A stretch of 64,000 bases of DNA, taken from the NCBI GenBank assembly GCA_021790385.1, contig JAJYDW010000001.1:93651-157650 (forward strand), given 5' to 3'. Made by a program: the position numbers and the translations under genes. The notes beneath the pieces were generated by a model. The model did not search any database. It was given only the letters and a program-made list of their open reading frames with translations, and was not told where the DNA came from. Positions within the stretch are counted from its first letter, which is position 1; each line of letters starts with the position of its first letter. The stretch comes from Planctomycetota bacterium. GTDB lineage: Bacteria > Planctomycetota > Phycisphaerae > WQYP01. Shown in pieces: positions 1,602 to 52,182 of this stretch.

Positions 1602-3083
1602 TTAGAACGCGTAAACCGCATCCACCGCGAAGAAGGTCTGCTGGTTTTTACCCGCAGATCCGCCGCCTTGGAACACCCGGTGATCCGCGACATCCTCGCG
1701 AATTTCTGGGCGAATCTTCAGGCTCTTGAGTAGATTGGCGTCCGGGAACGGCGTAATGGATGCACCAATCGTGAATTCACCATAATTCACGGTTGTGCCA
1801 GGCTCGCCACCCAACATGAAGGATTTACCATCGTACATGTACTCGGCCCGACCATTGAAGGTCAGGTACGAGTTCACATAGTAGCTGGCGTAAAACGCGG
1901 TATCAAACCAGCACGCGGATTGGATACTGCTTCCGGGCGTTCCAAGATAGGTAGCCCGCAGGCCCGGCGACCCGGGGGTAAGATAGCTGGAGGAGGAGGC
2001 TTCCGCGATCGAACCGCCCGCACCGTCGTAGCCAAGATTGGTGTCATTGGCCAGTGTCAACTGGCCATTGAGAATGTTCTTAGGATGCCAAGACGTGACC
2101 AAATCACCAACGGTACGATAGTAGCCGTTGCTATGGCCATCTTCCGGACCAAAAAGGACGCCGGGCTTGAACATCCACTCGGAATTGGGTTTGTAACAGG
2201 CACCCACCAGCCAGCTCACCATGCTGTTGTCATCGTTAAGGGATTGATTGTTACCGCGATCAACCCCCGCCAGGAATGACAACTGCTGGTTGACAATGTA
2301 CTTGGCCATGACACCCGTGAGGGTGTAAGGCAGCACATGGCCAAACGCCAGAGCGTGTGAATAAAACAGGTTGTTGACTGGGTCGATTTGTTCCAAACCG
2401 AAGGGGGTATCAAACTTACCGGCGCGAATCAACACGCCGCTGTCGGCCCCGATCGGAATGCCAACATCGATGTAGGCCTGTTCCAGATCGAATTGATCCA
2501 GTGGATCACCTTCGGTATTGTTGGACCAAGAATGATAAAAATTCAGGCCATTGGCGTGAATAAGATCCGCATCGGACCCGTAGATCATTTCGATCTTTCC
2601 GCCGATATCCCAGCCGCGCTTGCGGAACGACGGATTGGCAAAATTGATCACCTTTTCAAGGTAAAGTCCGACTTGGTCCAACTGGATGTTGTTGCCTTTT
2701 TCGGTGTTAAAGGCACTGCCCGCATAGGGTCGGGGGGAATTTTGGAAGCTGGTGGTGTAACCAATATCCAGGTAGCCACCGACTTTAATTCCCAGATTAT
2801 CCATATCCTGGCCGACCGTGGCCCCATTGCCATCCGGAATTCTTCCCATCGCATACATCAGCAAAGGCTGATTCTCCGGCGAAGCAGCCGGGGCTGCGGG
2901 TGCTGCCGTTTCAGCCATACCGTTGGTTGTGGCGGTGCTGGTCGGAGCACTGTCGAGACTTACGGTGGTATCCGTGGCAGGTATGGAATTCGCCGCTCTT
3001 GCTGTAACCGGGCCGGTTAAAAACAACCCCGCTCCAGCCATGGCCGCCGCAATAGCCATGGAGAATCTCAAACTGCGCTGCAT
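1602..3083 (-). CDS. Outer-membrane beta-barrel porin, BBP2/OmpL-like (paralogue 1)
   Basis: 493 residues with a clear signal peptide (basic start MQRSLRFS, hydrophobic core, cleavage near ARA-A about residue 30), a short Ala/Thr/Pro-rich linker and then alternating aromatic/polar strands ending in ...VDAVYAF, the C-terminal aromatic typical of barrel proteins. The start is firm: AAGGAG precedes ATG. It is a clear paralogue of the porin at 7445-8866; both share the TTVSLDS segment after the signal peptide, the LNFYHSW and QFDLEQAY segments and the same kind of C-terminus. The family is taken as passive outer-membrane channels; substrate unknown. It appears monocistronic, with a 663-base leader region upstream. 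Confidence 0.8.
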   Translation of the reverse strand: MQRSLRFSMAIAAAMAGAGLFLTGPVTARAANSIPATDTTVSLDSAPTSTATTNGMAETAAPAAPAASPENQPLLMYAMGRIPDGNGATVGQDMDNLGIKVGGYLDIGYTTSFQNSPRPYAGSAFNTEKGNNIQLDQVGLYLEKVINFANPSFRKRGWDIGGKIEMIYGSDADLIHANGLNFYHSWSNNTEGDPLDQFDLEQAYIDVGIPIGADSGVLIRAGKFDTPFGLEQIDPVNNLFYSHALAFGHVLPYTLTGVMAKYIVNQQLSFLAGVDRGNNQSLNDDNSMVSWLVGACYKPNSEWMFKPGVLFGPEDGHSNGYYRTVGDLVTSWHPKNILNGQLTLANDTNLGYDGAGGSIAEASSSSYLTPGSPGLRATYLGTPGSSIQSACWFDTAFYASYYVNSYLTFNGRAEYMYDGKSFMLGGEPGTTVNYGEFTIGASITPFPDANLLKSLKIRPEIREDVADHRVFQGGGSAGKNQQTFFAVDAVYAF

Positions 3084-3746
3084 AAAAAACTCCTTTTCTT
3101 AAAATGCTCGGCCATCCAAGCCTGCGGCTACGCCGCCGCAGACTGATGCCACTGATTCATGCAGATTGTTGGCCCGTACCATGGTTATCGGTACGTTGGC
3201 CTTTAGTTTCATGTTCAAATTTTCGTTGTGCGAATTCATACATCAGTTTCCGCTTCACTGTGTTCAGGAGCATTAGCTCTTGTCCAAACAATCAACGGGC
3301 AAAATCCGCGCAGCCAGGCCAAGCAAACGGGCCTTCCCGGTTATTCAGATGCCTGGGTCCATCAGGCTGCGTTTCAACTACGATTTACCCTTTGCGGAAT
3401 GGACCCCGTTTACTCCTAGAGTGCGACATGCCACTGTCACACCCTTGTGTTGCCTTTTGGCATTATCGGTCTGAAGAGTCCGGGAAAAACAATTTTTTAT
3501 ACCCGCACCGTTCAGATTGACCAGTTGGAAGCATATCAAGCTTGGTTAAGATTGCAAGTGCCTACGATTAAGAAGTGTTTAATAACCAGTTCAATCGTAA
3601 GCGCTTGCGCTGCAAAAACTATAAAAATAAAGGAAAATAAGCTTATATTGCAGGCAAATCGAATAATAATACGCTTAAATACGGCGAATGCGAAAAAAAA
3701 TTAATCGTTTTTACGAAATTTATTTATATTTGCCTCGAATAGACAT
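3084..3746. other. Gene-free region upstream of porin 1
   Basis: 663 bases between the glycogen synthase stop and the porin start, both on the minus strand. The plus-strand ORFs here (3104, 3228, 3280, 3447) have no recognisable domain or good start. Bases 3590-3740 are strikingly AT-rich against GC-rich surroundings. The long spacing suggests a regulated porin promoter, but no operator is identifiable. Confidence 0.5.
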
Positions 3747-5900: not shown

Positions 5901-6650
5901 CTACCGGTGTGCGCGCTTTTTGGGCATCACACGACGCCCGGCTTTCCGTTTGCCTGCCCGTTGGCCGGTTTTTGCCCCGCGGACCCTGGAAGCTTCGGAC
6001 AGGATCGGTGCCGACGGGCATGGGCTGCTGATGGGGCAATCGACGCAGCGCGGATTCCGGGCAGTGCAGTACGTTCGGCCATGGGCAATGAGCAGATGAG
6101 AAAACAGCGCCCAGAGATGCTGTGGAACCAGCCGCATCAGGTCTTTTTCCACTTTTTCAGGATCGGTATGCTGGGACAGCTCCAGGCGGCGGGCGATCCT
6201 GCCCACGTGCGTATCCACCACGATGCCGCAATTTTTCCCAAAGGCGTTGCCAAGCACGACATTGGCGGTCTTTCGGCCCACGCCGCGCAGACTCGTCAGT
6301 TCTTCCATCGTCTGCGGCACCTGCCCGCTATAGCGGGCGATGATATCCCTGGCGGTTTGTTGAATGGCGCGGGCCTTGCTGCGGAAAAAGCCGGTGCTCT
6401 GGATGATCTTTTCAATTTCGGCCGGCTCGGCTTCGGCCAGGGCTTGGACATCGGGAAATCGCTTAAAAAGTCGCGGCGTAACCATGTTCACGCGGACATC
6501 AGTGCATTGCGCTGAAAGAATGGTGGCCACCAGCAATTGCAGCGGATCGGCATAGTGCAGGGCGCAGTGGGCCTCGGGAAAAGTTTCGCGCAGACGGGCG
6601 ATGATGGTGTCGCAGCGGGTTTTTCTTTGGTCAGGCTTATCCAGCTCCAT
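5901..6650 (-). CDS. nth: Endonuclease III (DNA glycosylase/AP lyase)
   Basis: 249 residues. It removes oxidised pyrimidines and cuts the abasic site in base-excision repair. The helix-hairpin-helix LRGVGRKTAN carries catalytic Lys127, VVDTHVGR carries Asp146, and the C-terminal 4Fe-4S loop has the exact C-X6-C-X2-C-X5-C spacing (Cys195, 202, 205, 211). The ORF track starts at a GTG (6656), but the ATG two codons later has GGAG at 5 bases and is preferred. The C-terminus beyond the cluster is a basic Arg/Lys-rich tail of about 35 residues not needed by the family. It follows the DUF4149 gene by 12 bases, so they are co-transcribed. Confidence 0.95.
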   Translation of the reverse strand: MELDKPDQRKTRCDTIIARLRETFPEAHCALHYADPLQLLVATILSAQCTDVRVNMVTPRLFKRFPDVQALAEAEPAEIEKIIQSTGFFRSKARAIQQTARDIIARYSGQVPQTMEELTSLRGVGRKTANVVLGNAFGKNCGIVVDTHVGRIARRLELSQHTDPEKVEKDLMRLVPQHLWALFSHLLIAHGRTYCTARNPRCVDCPISSPCPSAPILSEASRVRGAKTGQRAGKRKAGRRVMPKKRAHR

Positions 6651-8866: not shown

Positions 8867-9090
8867 TGAAAACTCCTTAAAAAAATAACACAAAACCACA
8901 CGCTGCGGGAATGTAAAGGCAAATGGTATGCCAATGGCCCCAAAAGTGCCAGGATTGCAAAATTGGCCCGTAAAGGAGGCTGGCAGTGCCTGTGGAATGG
9001 TTAAGGTTTGATGAGCTTGGGAAACTTTGCTTATAAAATAGGCAATCTGGTGCTGGCGGTGGGTACGGGGCCGGGGAAAAAATTACTTTC

Positions 9091-9135
9091 CACTTTCCGG
9101 CTGGCTCTTTGGGCCACAGGGCGAGGGCTGCGGCC
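9091..9135. repeat. Dispersed repeat E, copy 1
   Basis: CACTTTCCGGCTGGCTCTTT followed by GGGCC and GCGAGGGCTGCG matches 58185-58228 closely. Part of it (CGGCTGGTTCTTTGGGCCG) adjoins repeat D at 14024-14042. Confidence 0.6.
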
Positions 9136-9140
9136 CGTAA

Positions 9141-9169
9141 GACGGGAGTCGGGGGACGGGAGTTGGGAG
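9141..9169. repeat. Dispersed repeat F, copy 1
   Basis: GACGGGAGTCGGGGGACGGG followed by AGTTGGGAG resembles 56640-56668, where GAGAGTCGGGAGTCGGGAG occurs. Short-period purine-rich repeat. Confidence 0.45.
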
Positions 9170-9212
9170 TTTGGCGATTCAACACGAAATATCTCCTACA
9201 AACGAGACACGA

Positions 9213-9708: not shown

Positions 9709-12141
9709 ATGCTCTTACGGTCTGGTCAATGGAATTTTCCCATACGCCCGGTGCTGCTTATGCTGGCTCCGGCCACGGCAATTTGCGTGGTAACTCCGCA
9801 TACAATAGCGCAAGGTGCTCTGGACAATAGACCAGCCCAGCATGCAGCGTTGTCGCCGCACTTACCCGTTGGCCAGACGCTCACCGGTGGATTGAAATTA
9901 ACGCCCCGCGTACGCAGCCTGCAGGTAATCGGGGCGATTGACCATGGCGTAAAATATCTGCTGGCCCATGAGGATAGAACCACCCTGTGGGAAGGCTTTT
10001 GGCCCAATGACCCCAAGGCCCACACCAGCGGAAAAAGTCAGTTCCCGCGGCAATTCGGCGGTGAAACTGCATTGGTAACCCAGGCTCTGCTGGATGTGGG
10101 CCAGAGTTTGCATCTGCCGGCGCTGAACATCTATGCCCCGCCGCTGCGGCGAGCCATTCACTTTTTGGCCACACTGCATCCGCAATCCACTTATGTGGCG
10201 TCATTTCAGGCCAATGCCATGGCCTTGCTGCCGGCCAAACCACAATACCTGCGCGTGCTCAAGATGGATGCCCGGTACCTGCGTCAGGCTATGAATCACG
10301 ACGGAGCCTACACGTATTGGATTATTCCGCATTACCCTGGTTTCCGGCGGCCCCGGAATTTATGGGATAATTCCAACAGCCAGTACGGCGTACTGGGGTT
10401 GTGGGCCTGTGCGCATCAGGGGATTATTATTCCGCATAGCTATTGGCTGCGTGCGGCGCGGCATTGGCGCAGCGCCCAGAGTTTTTCCGGGGCCTGGGGT
10501 TACAGCAGTTCCAAGCCCATCCACCGGTCGCTCACCCCCTGGCGGGCCGCCGATTTTACTCCCGCCGGGCTGGCCAGCCTGCTGATTTGTGATGAATTCA
10601 TTCACCAGCAGCCCACGCTTCAGCCCCAGCCGGATCAATATGTACAGCGCGGCCTGGCCTGGATTCACCGACACTTCACCGGTAAACTCCGCAGCCTGTA
10701 TGAAATTTACAATTACGTGCGGCTGGGCCTGGCCTGCGGCCTGCAGACTTTTGCCGGGCACAACTGGTATGATGATTTTGCGAGGCATCTGGTGCGGGTG
10801 CAGTGCCGCGACGGCAGTTGGAAGGGGCACTTTATCGGGGCGGATCGCAACATAAGCACGGCCTATGCCCTGTTAACACTCGACCGCGGGCTGAACCCCA
10901 TTTTCATCAGCAAGCTGCAGTACAACAAAAGGTACAGCGGTGCGTGGAACGCCCGGCCGCGCGATGCCGCCAATTTTACCTCCTGGGTCAGCCGCACATT
11001 TGAAACGCCATTGAACTGGCAGGTGGTCAGTTTCAACACGCCGGTATCGGATTGGCTCAATTCTCCGCTGCTGCTGATTACCGGCGATGCCGATCCGCAT
11101 TTTACATCCGGCGATGTTCGCAAGCTGCGTCAATACCTTCATGCCGGCGGCATTATTCTGGCATCGTGTAACGGACGTTCCCCGTTGTTTCTAAAGGCCA
11201 TGATTCACTGCGCTCTGCAAACCGTGCATCAGCGCTATTCAGTCCAGCCGCTTGCGGCGGCCGACGTGCTTTACCATATTCAGCCGTGGCTGCACTTCAA
11301 ACGCAATGCGGGCCTGCTGGCCGTGAGCAATGGCGTGCGTTATCTGTGGATCATCAGTCCGCTGGACCTGGGGGGCGTGTGGCAGACGCGGCAATTCAAC
11401 CGCAAACGCGATTGGGAGATTCCCGCCAATTTGTATTTTTATGCCAATGGAAAAGGTGCGCTGTCCAACCGGCTGCATTCTCTGGCGGTGGCACCGTCAA
11501 CCGGGTCCATACATCAGCAAATATCCGTAGCGCAGATTCAATATAAGGGTCTTTGGAATCCGGAGCCAGGGGCATGGCCACGCATGGCGGCTCTGGCGGC
11601 AGATACCCATGGGCTGAAGGTGCAGCTTTCACACGTGCTTCTCACAGGGCTGCACGCGGCCACGTGCGATCTGGCAGTGATTACCGGCACCGGGCACTTT
11701 ACGTGGAGCCGCCCGCAGGTTGCCGCCCTTGGCCGCTACCTCCGGCATGGCGGGATGTTGCTGGGTGATGCTGCGGGAGGCAAGGCGCGCTTTACCGATT
11801 CATTCGTCAAGCTGATAAAATCGATTTTCCCGCACGTACCTTTGGTGCCGATTCCACTGACAGCGTCGCTGCTGCGGGGCACATTCCCGGGAGGCACCAA
11901 CCTTACGCACGTAAAATACCGCAAGTATGTGGCGGCGATGGACCGGCTGAAAACGCACCCCCACCTGCTGGGCATCAAATGGCATGGACGCTGGGCGGTG
12001 GTGTATTCGCAATATGACATCACCAGCGGCTTTCTGGGCACGCATACGTGGGGAATAAGAGGTTATGCTCCCTCATCCGCCCAGGCTTTGGCGGCGCAGA
12101 TCATGTTCTACAATGAGGCTGGGCACCACCTGCCACATTGA
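9709..12141 (+). CDS. Exported toroid + DUF4159 protein
   Basis: An 810-residue protein with an N-terminal hydrophobic segment (about residues 12-35, likely a signal peptide). Residues about 70-390 resemble the alpha-alpha toroid of prenyltransferase/squalene-oxidase-like repeats (GVKYLLAHE, WDNSNSQYGVLGLWA, GAWGY, DRNISTAYALLTL). The C-terminal third contains two DUF4159-like segments, each with an ITG(D/T)..F.W/TS..V..L..YL..GG(I/M)(I/L)L pattern: around residues 445-490 and, more typically, 660-700. DUF4159 has a flavodoxin/GATase-like fold of unknown function. It is probably periplasmic or surface-exposed. It stands alone on the plus strand between repeat-rich stretches. Function unknown; the domain reading is from pattern recognition. 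Confidence 0.75.
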   Translation: MLLRSGQWNFPIRPVLLMLAPATAICVVTPHTIAQGALDNRPAQHAALSPHLPVGQTLTGGLKLTPRVRSLQVIGAIDHGVKYLLAHEDRTTLWEGFWPNDPKAHTSGKSQFPRQFGGETALVTQALLDVGQSLHLPALNIYAPPLRRAIHFLATLHPQSTYVASFQANAMALLPAKPQYLRVLKMDARYLRQAMNHDGAYTYWIIPHYPGFRRPRNLWDNSNSQYGVLGLWACAHQGIIIPHSYWLRAARHWRSAQSFSGAWGYSSSKPIHRSLTPWRAADFTPAGLASLLICDEFIHQQPTLQPQPDQYVQRGLAWIHRHFTGKLRSLYEIYNYVRLGLACGLQTFAGHNWYDDFARHLVRVQCRDGSWKGHFIGADRNISTAYALLTLDRGLNPIFISKLQYNKRYSGAWNARPRDAANFTSWVSRTFETPLNWQVVSFNTPVSDWLNSPLLLITGDADPHFTSGDVRKLRQYLHAGGIILASCNGRSPLFLKAMIHCALQTVHQRYSVQPLAAADVLYHIQPWLHFKRNAGLLAVSNGVRYLWIISPLDLGGVWQTRQFNRKRDWEIPANLYFYANGKGALSNRLHSLAVAPSTGSIHQQISVAQIQYKGLWNPEPGAWPRMAALAADTHGLKVQLSHVLLTGLHAATCDLAVITGTGHFTWSRPQVAALGRYLRHGGMLLGDAAGGKARFTDSFVKLIKSIFPHVPLVPIPLTASLLRGTFPGGTNLTHVKYRKYVAAMDRLKTHPHLLGIKWHGRWAVVYSQYDITSGFLGTHTWGIRGYAPSSAQALAAQIMFYNEAGHHLPH

Positions 12142-12156
12142 TGTGTCCCGGCACGT

Positions 12157-12198
12157 TGATCAGCGGTCAGCAGTTAGCGGTCAGCGATCAGCTTTCAA
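12157..12198. repeat. Dispersed repeat B, copy 2
   Basis: GATCAGCGGTCAGCAGTTAG followed by CGGTCAGCGATCAGC: at least four degenerate units directly after the DUF4159 gene stop. Confidence 0.65.
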
Positions 12199-12220
12199 CA
12201 AGCGGCGGGCTGCGTTTATT

Positions 12221-12252
12221 CGCAGCGGCTGGAGGGACCCAGCCGACTACGG
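12221..12252. repeat. Dispersed repeat G, copy 1
   Basis: GCTGGAGGGACCCAGCCGAC followed by TAC matches 31907-31942 with one or two changes (CAGC/CAGT, GACTAC/GGCTAC). Confidence 0.6.
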
Positions 12253-12306
12253 GGATGTGCCAAAATGCCTGCGCCGTATTCATATGCGTTATTACCTGAC
12301 AGCCCA

Positions 12307-47277: not shown

Positions 47278-47786
47278 CAATTTTGTTTCGCCTTTGCTTG
47301 CGGCCGTCGTCCCGGTACCGGCTCTTTTAGCTGGGCATGTCGGCCCGGACGGGTGAGCCAACGGATGTACGACAACGCGTACAACCCCATATTGGATATT
47401 GTCCGATTTTGCAGGGTGTTTGTCGAGAGGCATGGGTGTGATCCATTTCCCGGTGATGGTTGGTCCGGGGCGCAAGCGCTGCGTTCCGCCGCCCCGGGCC
47501 AACTATAATAAAGGCGAACCATGGCTGGTTGACTTTATTATCACCGGGGGTATAGAATTTAATAGAAGGTGTGCAGTGATAGCGGCGAAGGTTCTACCCG
47601 TCGGCAGGTGGTGGCCTGGGCAGAAGCGCAGAGAACGGGGCTTGGATTCGTGGATGGTGGAATTCGTGGCGGGAATATGGATACATTAACGCATATCAAT
47701 AAGATTGGGGGAGGGTAAATCCACCCGGAGATTGGCGTGGTTTTGGCCTTTTTTCCCACCAACGAAACGCGGAGGGCCGCCTTGAT
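47278..47786. other. Gene-free region before the cassette locus
   Basis: 509 bases. ORFs here (47399, 47559-47972) have no domains and lack good starts. No repeats from the families named here. It should hold the promoters of the hypothetical gene (minus) and the propeller fragment (plus). Confidence 0.5.
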
Positions 47787-48302
47787 ATGGTTGCTCCCGC
47801 TAAATTTCCCAATGGCTGCCGCTTGCTGCAGGCATCCATACCGCACAATCTGACCCACGGATCTGCCCTGCGGGTGCCCCGGCTGTACGTTTGCATGATT
47901 GCGGTTGCCGTGGCTAGTACGCTTCCGGCCACCGGTGCCTCGGCGGCGCAGGGTGGCAACCAGGCCGGGCAAAGTATCGCTAACACCCCCAAGGCGGTGC
48001 CGCCTTCATTACCGCCCCACTCCCTGAATTGCCCGGCGAAATTTATCACCGCCCTTGTTCCTGATGGCCACGGCGGGGCGTGGGCGGCATCCGAAGATAG
48101 CGGTATTTATCATTGGAATGCTGCCGCCAAATCTTGGAGGGCCTACAACACCGATAGCTCACCGGGCCTGGTAAGTAACCGTATTTATTCCCTGGCCATT
48201 GATTACCAGGGCCGATTGTGGGTCGGCATGGACCGCCATGGTGGTGTGTCGGAAGCGGGTCACCGCTGCGTACGGGGGGGCGAATGCCATGGTCAGAGCT
48301 GA
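47787..48302 (+). pseudogene. Truncated two-component-regulator-propeller-type exported protein
   Basis: A coding start is credible: signal-like hydrophobic stretch (YVCMIAVAVASTLPATGASAA) and then a beta-propeller segment FITALVPDGHGGAWAASEDS, YHWNAAAKSWRAYNTDSSPG and YSLAIDYQGRLWVGMDRHGG of the Reg_prop type. A full propeller would have several such blades; here the frame leaves the family at the junction with the cassette (about 48235) and soon stops, in sequence that is repeated at 49776. So this is a 5' fragment, about 150 residues, of a larger propeller protein, or a short relic still translated. The missing 3' part is not recognisable downstream. Confidence 0.65.
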
Positions 48303-49657
48303 TTTAGATATCGTCCGAGAACGGTGCCAGAGGTTTTGCGTTGTGCTTTCGGTCGTTGCCCTCCTCTCGCCCGTCGCCGTCGGCACGGTGTCGGCAGTTG
48401 CGGGTAGGTCGCCTTTGGTTCCCGCGTCACTATCCAGCGCCGTAGCAGAGCGGCTCCGGCGTTTGGATAACGTCTCAGTCACCTACCGCGAGGTCGTCGA
48501 CTATACACCTACAATAAACCTCCGGCTGCACAAACTGCTCATGGAGAAGCTGCGGAAAAAGTACGGGATTCGCGCCGGGCCGATTCGCCACGGTCATTAC
48601 GCCTCTGTTCGCCGTTTATCCTACCTCCATGGTCGCGTGCTCTACGAGTTTCGTGTGGCTTCCAAGACCATGGCCAAGCTCGCCCCGCCCCGCGGATCGG
48701 GCGTCGGGGAGGTGAAGGTCATCAAGACGTTCACCCCGGAGCGCAGCGAGTGCCTTCGCTACGCGCTTCACGGTAAATTTCCAATTGGTACCATCAAAAC
48801 GGAATCTCCGCTCCCCTGGTCCAGACTCGACGTGGCCCTTGGGTTAAGGGGGGCCGGATCGGAGCATTGGCTCCGGCCATCGGACGTAAGGAAGATGCGC
48901 CTGAATCGGCCGGGCGGTGGCCGCTTCAATCTGGTGCAGAAAAACCCTGGCGCCTACGATTACCGTTGGACTTTCCGGGAGAAACCGCACCTGGAATTGG
49001 TCGGGTTTATGGCTTCCAATGGCGGCGCTGCGTTCATCGGAATCAAGTGCGGTTCCTTCCGCAATGTTCACGGCTTGTGGCTGCCGGAACGCATCAAGGA
49101 AACGGTTTGGCCACTCGGCGGCGGCGGGCGCTCCAGCGAGAACGTACTCATTACGCATATCGCCTACACCGTCGGCTCGCAGTGGAACACTCCGAATCGT
49201 TACCTAATCCTTTTTCCGCAGGGGTCCGCCGTTTTGGATGAGCGGATCGGCCAAAGCTTTCGCATTGAGAGCCGCTCACGCAGGCTCACCGATAAGGCGA
49301 TATTTCATCTTCTGGTGAAATGGGACGGGAGCGAGCAAACAAAAGGGAGTCCGCACCAATGAAAATAGCATCAAAAGAAAAAAAGGCGTCGAATTTCAGG
49401 TGGCCCACCCTGCTGGCGGCCACCGCATTGACCTTGGCGGCCATCGCTGCTTACGCAGGCTACCGCTTGGGAACACCGAGCACGGCCCGTGCCCGCGCAC
49501 CATCCGCAGCCAGCCCGCTGCGTGCAGGTGCCATGGCTCTCAATTTCGGCGCGTTCCCATTCGGACAGCACCCGGTGGTACGTTTTATGCTCACCAACAC
49601 GGCGGCCCGACCAATCCAAATAATGCACCTGGTTCCGTCATGCGATTGTATTTCGGC
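48234..49657 (+). repeat. Cassette copy 1 of a tandem duplication
   Basis: Spans the 5' flank, gene A (unknown exported protein) and the head of a DUF1573 gene. Matches 49776-51178. The first about 128 bases and the last 290 or so are nearly identical to copy 2; the middle of gene A is strongly diverged. Copy 1 has seven G in a run where copy 2 has six. Confidence 0.85.
48289..49362 (+). CDS. Exported protein of unknown family, cassette gene A
   Basis: 357 residues from the ATG at 48289 that is common to both copies; the ORF-track start is in the repeated flank. Signal peptide with core FCVVLSVVALLSPVAVGTVSA. The mature part is mixed beta and helix with ERLRRLDNVSVTYREVVDY, KVIKTFTPERSE.LRYALHGKFPIG, LGLRGAGSEHWLRPSDV, GLWLPERIKE and YTVGSQWNTPNRYLILFPQG. 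This reads like a LolA-like or outer-membrane lipoprotein-sorting-type fold, which is inference. It overlaps the DUF1573 gene by four bases (ATGA), so the two are translationally coupled. Confidence 0.65.
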   Translation: MVRADLDIVRERCQRFCVVLSVVALLSPVAVGTVSAVAGRSPLVPASLSSAVAERLRRLDNVSVTYREVVDYTPTINLRLHKLLMEKLRKKYGIRAGPIRHGHYASVRRLSYLHGRVLYEFRVASKTMAKLAPPRGSGVGEVKVIKTFTPERSECLRYALHGKFPIGTIKTESPLPWSRLDVALGLRGAGSEHWLRPSDVRKMRLNRPGGGRFNLVQKNPGAYDYRWTFREKPHLELVGFMASNGGAAFIGIKCGSFRNVHGLWLPERIKETVWPLGGGGRSSENVLITHIAYTVGSQWNTPNRYLILFPQGSAVLDERIGQSFRIESRSRRLTDKAIFHLLVKWDGSEQTKGSPHQ

Positions 49658-49844
49658 GGCCTGCACGCCGCGTGCTCACGCCGCCGGGCCGATGCGGGAT
49701 GGGGCACCAGATTGGACATTTGGCGCGGCAGCGATCGATATTCAGCAGGATCGTTGCCTCACACGATGGTCCGCCATGGTGGTGTGTCGGAAGCGGGTCA
49801 CCGCTGCGTACGGGGGGCGAATGCCATGGTCAGAGCTGATTTAG
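49359..49844 (+). pseudogene. Truncated DUF1573 gene, cassette gene B
   Basis: 161 codons open from ATG 49359, but only the first about 99 match the intact DUF1573 protein at 50881-51678 (N-terminal TM anchor WPTLLAATALTLAAIAAYAG; the SCDC motif near residues 95-97). After the shared SCDCISA the frame leaves the family at about 49657 and runs through unrelated DNA and into the flank of copy 2. The homologous 3' half is missing. Translation may give a small membrane-anchored fragment. It starts inside gene A's stop with an ATGA overlap. Confidence 0.75.
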
Positions 49845-51178
49845 ATATCGTCCGAGAACGGTGCCAGAGGTTTTGCGTTGTGCTTTCGGTCGTTGCCCTT
49901 CTTTTGCCCGCCGCCATCAGCGCGGCGGCAGCGGATAAGCCGCCCACTGGTCCAGCACCGTTAATCAGCACCGTGGCCCAGCGCCTGCGGCGGCTGGGTA
50001 ATGTTTCGGCCACCTACCGCGATGTCATCGATTCTAGAGCTACAATAAACCCCCGCCTGTGGAAATTACTTCAGGAGAAAATGCGTAGGAAGTACGGCCT
50101 TCTCCTCGGCCCGGAGAGTCACGGCCGTTACGTCTCCGCACGCCGGTTCTCATACCTCCATGGGTGCGCGCTTTATCAGTTCCGGCTTCTACCGCAGACT
50201 ATTGCCAAGGTCCCGCCGCTTACTATCGGTGATTGGAAGGTCATCAAAACATACACTCCAGAGCGCAGTGAAAGCCTTCGCTACGCGCTTCACGGTAAAT
50301 TTCCAATCGGCGGTATTGAAGCCAGGGACTCGCTTCCATGGTCGGTAATGGACGTTGCGCTGGGGCTAAGGGGCGCCGGGTCTGACCACTGGCTCCGGCC
50401 ATCGGACGTAAAAAAGATGCAATTGATGCGGCTTGCTGGGGGCAGTTTTACTCTGGCCCAGGATAACCGCGGTGCGTACGATTACCGCTGGACATTCCGG
50501 CAAAAGCCCCACTTGGAGTTGGTAAGTGTTGCGGCCTCCATGAAGGGGAAACAACTCATTGCAATCAGGTGCAGCAACTTTCGCAACGTTGACGGGCTTT
50601 GGCTGCCAGAACACATCAAGGAAACGTCTCGGCCATTGGGCTACGGCAGACGTATCAGCCAGACTGTGTCGATTACGCATGTTGTCTACACCGTCGGATC
50701 CCGCTGGAACACCCCTAATCGTTACCTAATCCTTTTTCCGCAGGGGTCCGCCGTTTTGGATGAGCGGATCGGCCAAAGCTTTCGCATCGAAAGCCGGCCT
50801 CGCCGGTTGACAGACAAGGCGATATTTCATCTTCTGGTGAAATGGGACGGAGGTTGGCACAAAAAAGGGGGACCGCACCGATGAAAGCAGAATCACAAAA
50901 AAAAAGAGTGACCGTTGCAAGGTGGCCCACCCTGCTGGCGGCCACCGCATTGACCTTGGCGGCCATCGCTGCTTACGCAGGCTACCGCTTGGGAACACCG
51001 AGCACGGCCCGTGCCCGCGCACCATCCACAGCCAGCCTGCTGCGTGCAGGTGCCATGGCTCTCAATTTCGGCGCGTTCCCATTCGGACAGCACCCGGTGG
51101 TACGTTTTATGCTCACCAACACGGCGGCCCGACCAATCCAAATAATGCACCTGGTTCCATCATGCGATTGTATTTCGG
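49776..51178 (+). repeat. Cassette copy 2 of a tandem duplication
   Basis: Homologous to 48234-49657. The 116 bases between the copies (49658-49775) match neither. Beyond 51178 the DUF1573 gene continues intact. Confidence 0.85.
49826..50884 (+). CDS. Exported protein of unknown family, cassette gene C (paralogue of gene A)
   Basis: 352 residues from the ATG at 49826, within the shared flank; the ORF-track protein starting at 49400 runs through gene B in another frame and is not real. Signal peptide then the same architecture as gene A: RLRRLGNVSATYRDVID, KVIKTYTPERSESLRYALHGKFPIG, GLWLPEHIKE and YTVGSRWNTPNRYLILFPQG. The first 20 or so residues and the last 70 are nearly identical to gene A, the middle differs widely. 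ATGA overlap with the DUF1573 gene D. No enzyme motif recognised. Confidence 0.7.
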   Translation: MVRADLDIVRERCQRFCVVLSVVALLLPAAISAAAADKPPTGPAPLISTVAQRLRRLGNVSATYRDVIDSRATINPRLWKLLQEKMRRKYGLLLGPESHGRYVSARRFSYLHGCALYQFRLLPQTIAKVPPLTIGDWKVIKTYTPERSESLRYALHGKFPIGGIEARDSLPWSVMDVALGLRGAGSDHWLRPSDVKKMQLMRLAGGSFTLAQDNRGAYDYRWTFRQKPHLELVSVAASMKGKQLIAIRCSNFRNVDGLWLPEHIKETSRPLGYGRRISQTVSITHVVYTVGSRWNTPNRYLILFPQGSAVLDERIGQSFRIESRPRRLTDKAIFHLLVKWDGGWHKKGGPHR

Positions 51179-51678
51179 CCATCTGCGAGCGGCGTAAACT
51201 GGCCGTCGGGGGCGAATCCTCCATTGATGTTACTTACCGCGGATTCCCCGGGCTGGATGGACCGTTTAGTAAAACGGTTTCAGTCATTTACAGGGTTGGT
51301 AGCGGCCAGGCGCGTTCCTTGCCGTTGGCGGTCTACGGCGATGTTACGCCCAATGCGCCGTTCGTGGTCTATCCCACCCGGATTGAAATTGGCCGCGTTG
51401 GACGCGGAACCTCTACCAAGGAGATGGTTTATTTCCGCGGTCGGCGGAATCTACTGCGTTCGCTGCCCAAGTCGGTCACCGTTGTCGTAGGGAAAACGCG
51501 GAGGATTTTATTAAAGACGATGGGAACCTCGCGGGCCGTCTGCGACCGGGCCTTGGCAATAAAAATCGCGGTTCCGGCAACCGCATCACCCGGCCGGTTC
51601 TCCACCGCGATCAAGATTACTTCGCCGGGTTTCGGGCCGGTGGTAGTTCGGATAGAGGGTCGCGTCGTGGGGCGCTGA
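50881..51678 (+). CDS. DUF1573 domain membrane-anchored protein, cassette gene D
   Basis: 265 residues. N-terminal anchor WPTLLAATALTLAAIAAYAG (about 15-34), a linker, then the DUF1573 immunoglobulin-like domain: NFGAFPFGQHPVVRFMLTNTAARPIQIMHLVPSCDC with the cysteine pair at 95 and 97, YRVGSGQARSLPLAVYGDV and a second Ig-like part. The family is exported and of unknown function and is common in Planctomycetes and Bacteroidetes. Translation coupled with gene C by ATGA; the GGGGGA upstream is its RBS. It is the intact counterpart of gene B. Confidence 0.85.
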   Translation: MKAESQKKRVTVARWPTLLAATALTLAAIAAYAGYRLGTPSTARARAPSTASLLRAGAMALNFGAFPFGQHPVVRFMLTNTAARPIQIMHLVPSCDCISAICERRKLAVGGESSIDVTYRGFPGLDGPFSKTVSVIYRVGSGQARSLPLAVYGDVTPNAPFVVYPTRIEIGRVGRGTSTKEMVYFRGRRNLLRSLPKSVTVVVGKTRRILLKTMGTSRAVCDRALAIKIAVPATASPGRFSTAIKITSPGFGPVVVRIEGRVVGR

Positions 51679-52182
51679 GCCGCCACGTCGGCGGCCATTT
51701 AATGGGGTTATTGATCGTGGAGCCGTTGGGAAGTATCCCTCTATATGGGGCTCCGGCCAGCGGGCCCGGCCAGGCGCGAACGCCACCTTGGGGAATCACC
51801 ACCGGAACGGCGATTCTGCTGCTGGTGGTGGCCGTGCCATCGCCTGTCAATGGTATCGTGCGTCACCGCCACGCCAAAAAAACTCAAAATCCCTCTCCGC
51901 CGCGACACAACTTGCCCAAGCCCCCTGCTGCAGAATGCGGAAAGTCATGCGATGCCGCGAGGCTTGATACCGGACACCGCCGCATTCACGGATCATTGTA
52001 TTTGCCAGCGGGCAAGCGAGCCTATAATCAAATTGGATGGCCTACCGGAGTACGCAAGCGGCGGAGTCCTTGCGTCCGGCGGCGGGATGGGGTTGTTGGG
52101 TACCGGCGATGTTTCCGGCTGCTTGTGCCGCACGGCCGCGTCGGCGGCCAAGGCTGGCTATCATTTTTGAAGGAGAAATCTG
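51679..52182. other. Region without a recognised gene after the cassettes
   Basis: 504 bases. Overlapping plus-strand ORFs (51702, 51745) contain a hydrophobic stretch (GTAILLLVVAVPSP) but otherwise look like non-coding GC-rich DNA and have no family match. The cupin gene begins at its end with a GGAG and a GTG. Could hold remnants of the broken propeller gene; I cannot see any. Confidence 0.4.

Follow-up and report, generated by a model that had tools for sequence, protein, structure and literature searches.

The window, by which the whole 64,000-nucleotide stretch analysed here is meant, carries an array made up of a remnant of a Reg_prop gene and two head-to-tail copies of a two-gene unit, in which a gene for an exported protein of predicted LolA fold (gene 1) is followed by a DUF1573 gene (gene 2). 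The features of the array are as follows.

About 47430..51964, no strand: lineage-specific insert carrying the array, about 4.5 kb (blastn against the G001-G004 loci; landmark distances)
47787..48231, + strand: 5' remnant of a Reg_prop (two-component-regulator propeller) gene (PF07494, E 7e-8; 51% amino acid identity to G001:C365)
48228..48366, + strand: 5' near-identical tract of copy 1, upstream flank and signal-peptide start, partner 49766-49903 (alignment, run test)
48289..49362, + strand: copy 1 gene 1, exported protein of predicted LolA fold, 357 aa (translation, hmmscan, AlphaFold, Foldseek)
49195..49265, + strand: identical tract near the 3' end of gene 1, 71/71, partner 50717-50787
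49359..49657, + strand: copy 1 gene 2, truncated DUF1573, SCDC motif kept and remainder lost (alignment, PF07610)
49658..49765, no strand: spacer between the copies, unrelated, 108 bp (comparison with the window and related loci)
49826..50884, + strand: copy 2 gene 1, exported protein of predicted LolA fold, 352 aa, 70% identical to copy 1 (translation, comparison)
50881..51678, + strand: copy 2 gene 2, full-length DUF1573 with a Cys-x-Cys motif, SCDCISAIC (PF07610, E 5e-13)

Gene 1 and gene 2 overlap by start and stop codon (ATGA) at 49359 in copy 1 and at 50881 in copy 2, as the sequence-only reading had noticed. That reading also described two full two-gene cassettes in tandem; the head-to-tail repeat stands, but the DUF1573 gene of copy 1 is truncated at 49657, so that only one cassette is complete. 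The truncated gene matches that of copy 2 over about 100 codons, up to 49657, after which its frame continues across the spacer into the copy 2 flank; when the origin of the 108-bp spacer was sought, neither the rest of the window nor related loci gave a match. Against PF07610, the copy 2 protein scores 49.3 bits and the copy 1 fragment 26.5 bits, the curated cut-off being 26.1. The Cys-x-Cys motif of DUF1573 reads SCDC in the window and SCSC in most relatives. For gene 1, hmmscan against Pfam and NCBIfam profiles gave no family match, the LolA profile included, and a profile search against PDB sequences returned nothing useful apart from a weak FliG match. The AlphaFold model (mean pLDDT 73) was matched by Foldseek to LolA3 with an E value of 4e-7 and to many LolA/LolB and related carriers, with a moderate TM score of about 0.5 by target length, and the gene 1 product is thus predicted to have a LolA fold.

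Tandem copies and their near-identical tracts

In a base-by-base alignment, copy 1 spans 48228-49657 and copy 2 spans 49766-51179, and near identity alternates along them with identity of about 68%. The exact runs, in copy 1 coordinates, lie at 48233-48273 (41 nt), 48275-48362 (88 nt), 48752-48785 (34 nt), 48868-48889 (22 nt), 49195-49265 (71 nt), 49294-49328 (35 nt), 49398-49505 (108 nt), 49517-49636 (120 nt), and 49638-49657 (20 nt). The runs of 88, 71, 108, and 120 nt bear out the near-identical 5' flank, gene 1 3' stretch, and DUF1573 start that had been claimed from the letters alone. When codon-sized column blocks of the alignment were shuffled 2000 times, the longest run had a mean of 31 nt and never exceeded 69 nt, against the 120 nt observed, and 539 bases lie in runs of at least 20 nt, against a shuffled maximum of 321; the claimed unevenness of divergence is therefore real.

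The central region (48379-49185) has indeed changed, with 68.5% identity between the copies, although exact tracts such as 48752-48785 and 48868-48889 also lie within this "diverged" middle, a correction to the sequence-only reading. By the Nei-Gojobori method, dS in the middle is about 0.92 and dN about 0.26 (ratio 0.28), so the copies are old and their middle is under purifying constraint, not driven to change. The near-identical tracts, meanwhile, are young: the DUF1573 starts (49398-49657 and 50920-51179) are 98.8% identical, with 3 mismatches in 260 bases, and the 5' tract up to 48362 holds one substitution and one G indel. As a separate observation, copy 1 has seven consecutive G (48274-48280) where copy 2 has six (49812-49817); ahead of gene 1, the frame of copy 2 stays open as far back as an ATG at 49766, and that of copy 1 is shifted.

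The insert and its empty site

Neither the truncated Reg_prop gene nor the lineage-specific insert had been noticed in the sequence-only reading. The intergenic gap between the landmarks TTTGTCGAG and CCTATAAT measures 4602 bp here and 110-113 bp in four congeners; the insert is missing at this same site in 4/4 of them (G001-G004; the nearest at 93-95% DNA identity), and the sequence on either side is collinear with theirs by blastn. Gene 1 was found in none of the four congener genomes. The Reg_prop remnant ends where copy 1 begins, and its nucleotide homology to congener genes covers 47870-48241. At the junction, CCGCCATGG is common to the Reg_prop homologue and to the copy 2 flank, and a deletion between short matching stretches could have produced this. 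For the right end of the insert (51679-51964), no match was found that would indicate its origin; it was considered as the start of a MauE gene, but the resemblance was seen by eye and is not significant.

The simplest reading of these data is probably that the array was gained in this lineage. Clean loss of an ancestral array from all four congeners is unlikely: the congeners do have related Reg_prop clusters at other loci, but the same 110-113 bp gap in all four would require several clean losses or a single very old one, and none of the four genomes has gene 1. It is quite unlikely, too, that short-read joins or collapse within near-identical tracts produced the truncated DUF1573 gene and the shared flank. 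The main caveat is that the genome is a fragmented assembly of 106 contigs, because of which joins inside near-identical tracts could be wrong; copy 1 leaves copy 2 exactly where the identical tract ends (49657), and the contigs of the relatives G005 and G015 terminate within array copies. Against an artefact, the two middles differ and both are open, both flanks are collinear with the congeners, and the exact repeats are at most 120 nt, under usual short-read lengths.

Related arrays in the family

A genome search found only the two window copies of gene 1 in this genome and none beyond them. Among the genomes searched, gene 1 was found only in this Planctomycetota family, the relatives that have it belonging to other genera. 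A contig scan with the window protein gave no match; the same scan with the G005 group gave three contigs, from Planctomycetota and Phycisphaerales metagenome assemblies, and no relatives were found in plasmid and viral collections.

The clusters of the relatives combine Reg_prop, a Cys-rich exported peptide, the LolA-fold protein, DUF1573, and MauE, some of them in tandem; in the wider type, the Reg_prop gene lies in front and a MauE/thioredoxin-like gene behind. In G005, G015, G019, G020, and G026, a short exported Cys-rich protein is encoded directly before gene 1, and in G015 the order of peptide and gene 1 occurs three times in succession. Those exported peptides that were counted have 10-12 cysteines, with a common spacing of the CC..GC..C..CG..GC type. 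No such peptide gene was found before gene 1 in the window array. Gene 1 followed by DUF1573 occurs in the window and in loci L024, L026, L028, L030, and L033, and in the G005 array gene 1 stands without DUF1573 after it.

Several further observations were made in these loci. L091, L094, and L092, at other loci in congeners and relatives, hold single cassettes of Reg_prop, peptide (in L091 and L094), LolA-like, DUF1573, and MauE genes, some with a prepilin-type gene at the end. In L030, from G020, an ECF-type sigma factor gene (2314-3426, identified by eye) lies between Reg_prop and the peptide/LolA-fold/DUF1573 cassettes; three upstream/leader blocks of about 120-275 bp (3457-3729, 6211-6468, and 8909-9182), 80-85% identical, precede peptides with differing mature parts; and a DUF1573 protein (11004-12278) resembles, by eye, a C39-type peptidase domain in its N-terminal part, only the DUF1573 part having been matched, just below the cut-off. 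In the reverse complement of L024, a 169-bp block, composed of the Reg_prop gene tail plus intergenic region, recurs ahead of the next peptide gene (3368-3535 and 6316-6484, 90.5%), and is a relic of cassette duplication.

Silent sites, probable gene conversion, and known systems

Tests at silent sites point to conversion among paralogues, in the window and in a related array, but not between orthologues. At the 5' end of gene 1, the window pair has 23 consecutive same-codon sites (permutation p = 0.0007), and same codons make up 25/32 in the C-terminal block against 81/153 in the middle (p = 0.007). In the three-member array of G005, the copies agree at 96-100% of positions over the last 120 bp or so of their shared coding part, the middles being mostly 40-70% identical, and this homogenised block has the position of the 49195-49265 tract in the window. 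The longest same-codon run gives p = 0.0007, <1e-4, and <1e-4 for the three pairs of G005 paralogues, against p = 0.77 for the orthologue pair G005c1/G026a; another orthologue pair, G014/G019a, gives p = 0.013, at a different place. Same codons amount to 88-97% in the C-terminal block and 35-45% in the middle between the G005 paralogues, and to 78% and 69%, respectively, with the G026 orthologue. In the G005 array, where an orthologue was available for this comparison, paralogues are thus closer than orthologues in the C-terminal block and the reverse holds in the middle, which is the hallmark of concerted evolution. Between genera, shared codons are not clearly in excess in the C-terminal block, so that the tract identity is paralogue-specific and a fixed DNA or RNA signal is disfavoured. 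No effect was seen between the two diverged G015 array members compared, and conversion therefore seems to need recent similarity. The earlier suggestion of gene conversion at the flanks is upheld by these results.

The sequence-only reading had offered an alternative, namely cassette or antigen-like variation with exchange of variable central domains between conserved flanks; in a programmed system of this kind, the flanks would be the recombination sites. Both the window and the G005 array of three members have conserved ends around a differing middle, and in G020 the similar leader blocks stand before three peptide cassettes with unrelated mature parts. Nevertheless, a search for copies with other middles found none beyond the two in this genome, the one assembly of the species compared, so that a silent store is missing, and none in the four congeners; with a dN/dS of 0.28, the middle does not look diversified in the manner of an antigen; neither a recombinase gene nor paired inverted repeats were seen adjoining the array; and identical patches lie inside the middle. 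Since a copy store and diversifying selection are both lacking and sister species have no copy, variation of this kind is not supported and must be considered very improbable. Purifying selection on the ends alone is hardly credible: within the family no protein region is more conserved than the C-terminal block, and the signal peptide and DUF1573 start could likewise be more constrained, but synonymous sites in the tracts are identical too, along with about 60 bp of non-coding flank, and with the lack of a clear shared-codon excess between genera the silent-site tests largely refute it.

Gene conversion at the flanks of two old tandem paralogues, themselves a truncated portion of a kind of planctomycete array and brought in as an insert of about 4.5 kb, is therefore considered the probable explanation. 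Two tandem LolA-fold paralogues, each with a DUF1573 gene behind it, would have been diverging for long, and recombination would again and again have carried short tracts from one to the other, chiefly at the 5' flank with the signal peptide, at the 3' end of gene 1, and where DUF1573 begins; partial concerted evolution by patchy gene conversion would have been the outcome. Conversion is inferred here in preference to repeated partial duplication, and gain in preference to loss. The array piece would have reached its locus as an insert; in it Reg_prop is cut, the peptide gene is missing, and one DUF1573 gene is cut. From gene order and motifs, a role in peptide carriage and disulfide handling may be proposed: the LolA-fold protein would carry or chaperone the Cys-rich exported peptide, and the Cys-x-Cys DUF1573 and MauE/thioredoxin proteins would manage its disulfides. 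Because the window insert is without a peptide gene, a function deduced from the relatives may no longer apply there. A broader proposal, conceivable but doubtful, is that this planctomycete family has an undescribed secreted-peptide system of tandem cassettes, each with a variable Cys-rich peptide and with a LolA-fold carrier and a Cys-x-Cys DUF1573 helper of its own; homogenised leader and 3' blocks would keep the cassettes recombinable, the peptide and the carrier middle would diversify together, and the set of matched peptide-carrier pairs would keep changing in each lineage; the window would then hold a decaying, recently acquired fragment.

A search of the literature on the MauE/LolA/Cys-rich combination, planctomycete DUF1573, and NVEALA-type clusters found no description of this array, and the peptide/LolA/DUF1573 arrangement appears to be new to the literature searched. 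It points to an array, described in none of the papers found, of secreted Cys-rich peptides with putative LolA-fold and DUF1573 partners dedicated to them, and offers a gene neighbourhood for asking what DUF1573 proteins do. Like the LolA/LolB carriers (PDB 9tp6, 4ki3, and 7z6w), gene 1 is predicted to encode a helix and a curved antiparallel sheet after a signal peptide; unlike them, it is longer (about 350 aa), shares only about 6-12% sequence identity, is without a Pfam LolA match, and occurs in tandem arrays next to a DUF1573 gene. Among DUF1573 proteins, PMC9312934 lists a selenoprotein form that has a UGC motif, which hints at thiol chemistry; that form and gene 2 both belong to PF07610, but the motif of gene 2 consists of cysteine codons, not selenocysteine, and the window DUF1573 differs from known ones in its pairing with a gene of predicted LolA fold and in the truncation of copy 1. 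Cassette-based antigenic variation has been reviewed (PMC4534519), with the MgPa system of Mycoplasma genitalium as one case (PMC2169797); it shares with the window conserved flanks around a different centre, whereas the window has two copies, purifying selection, no silent store, and an origin in an environmental planctomycete assembly. For prokaryotic paralogues, concerted evolution by gene conversion, with copies within a genome closer than orthologues at silent sites as well, has been reported, tandem pairs included (for example in PMC6053082). Silent-site identity is clustered in tracts between the window paralogues, as gene conversion would have it, but only the ends are homogenised here and the middles keep diverging, and the window gene family was not found among the cases consulted there. 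Concerted evolution of tandem paralogues is thus already known, while its host array appears undescribed in the literature searched; the array paralogues, alike at their ends and drifting in their middles in two genera, provide a clear bacterial case of the partial form.
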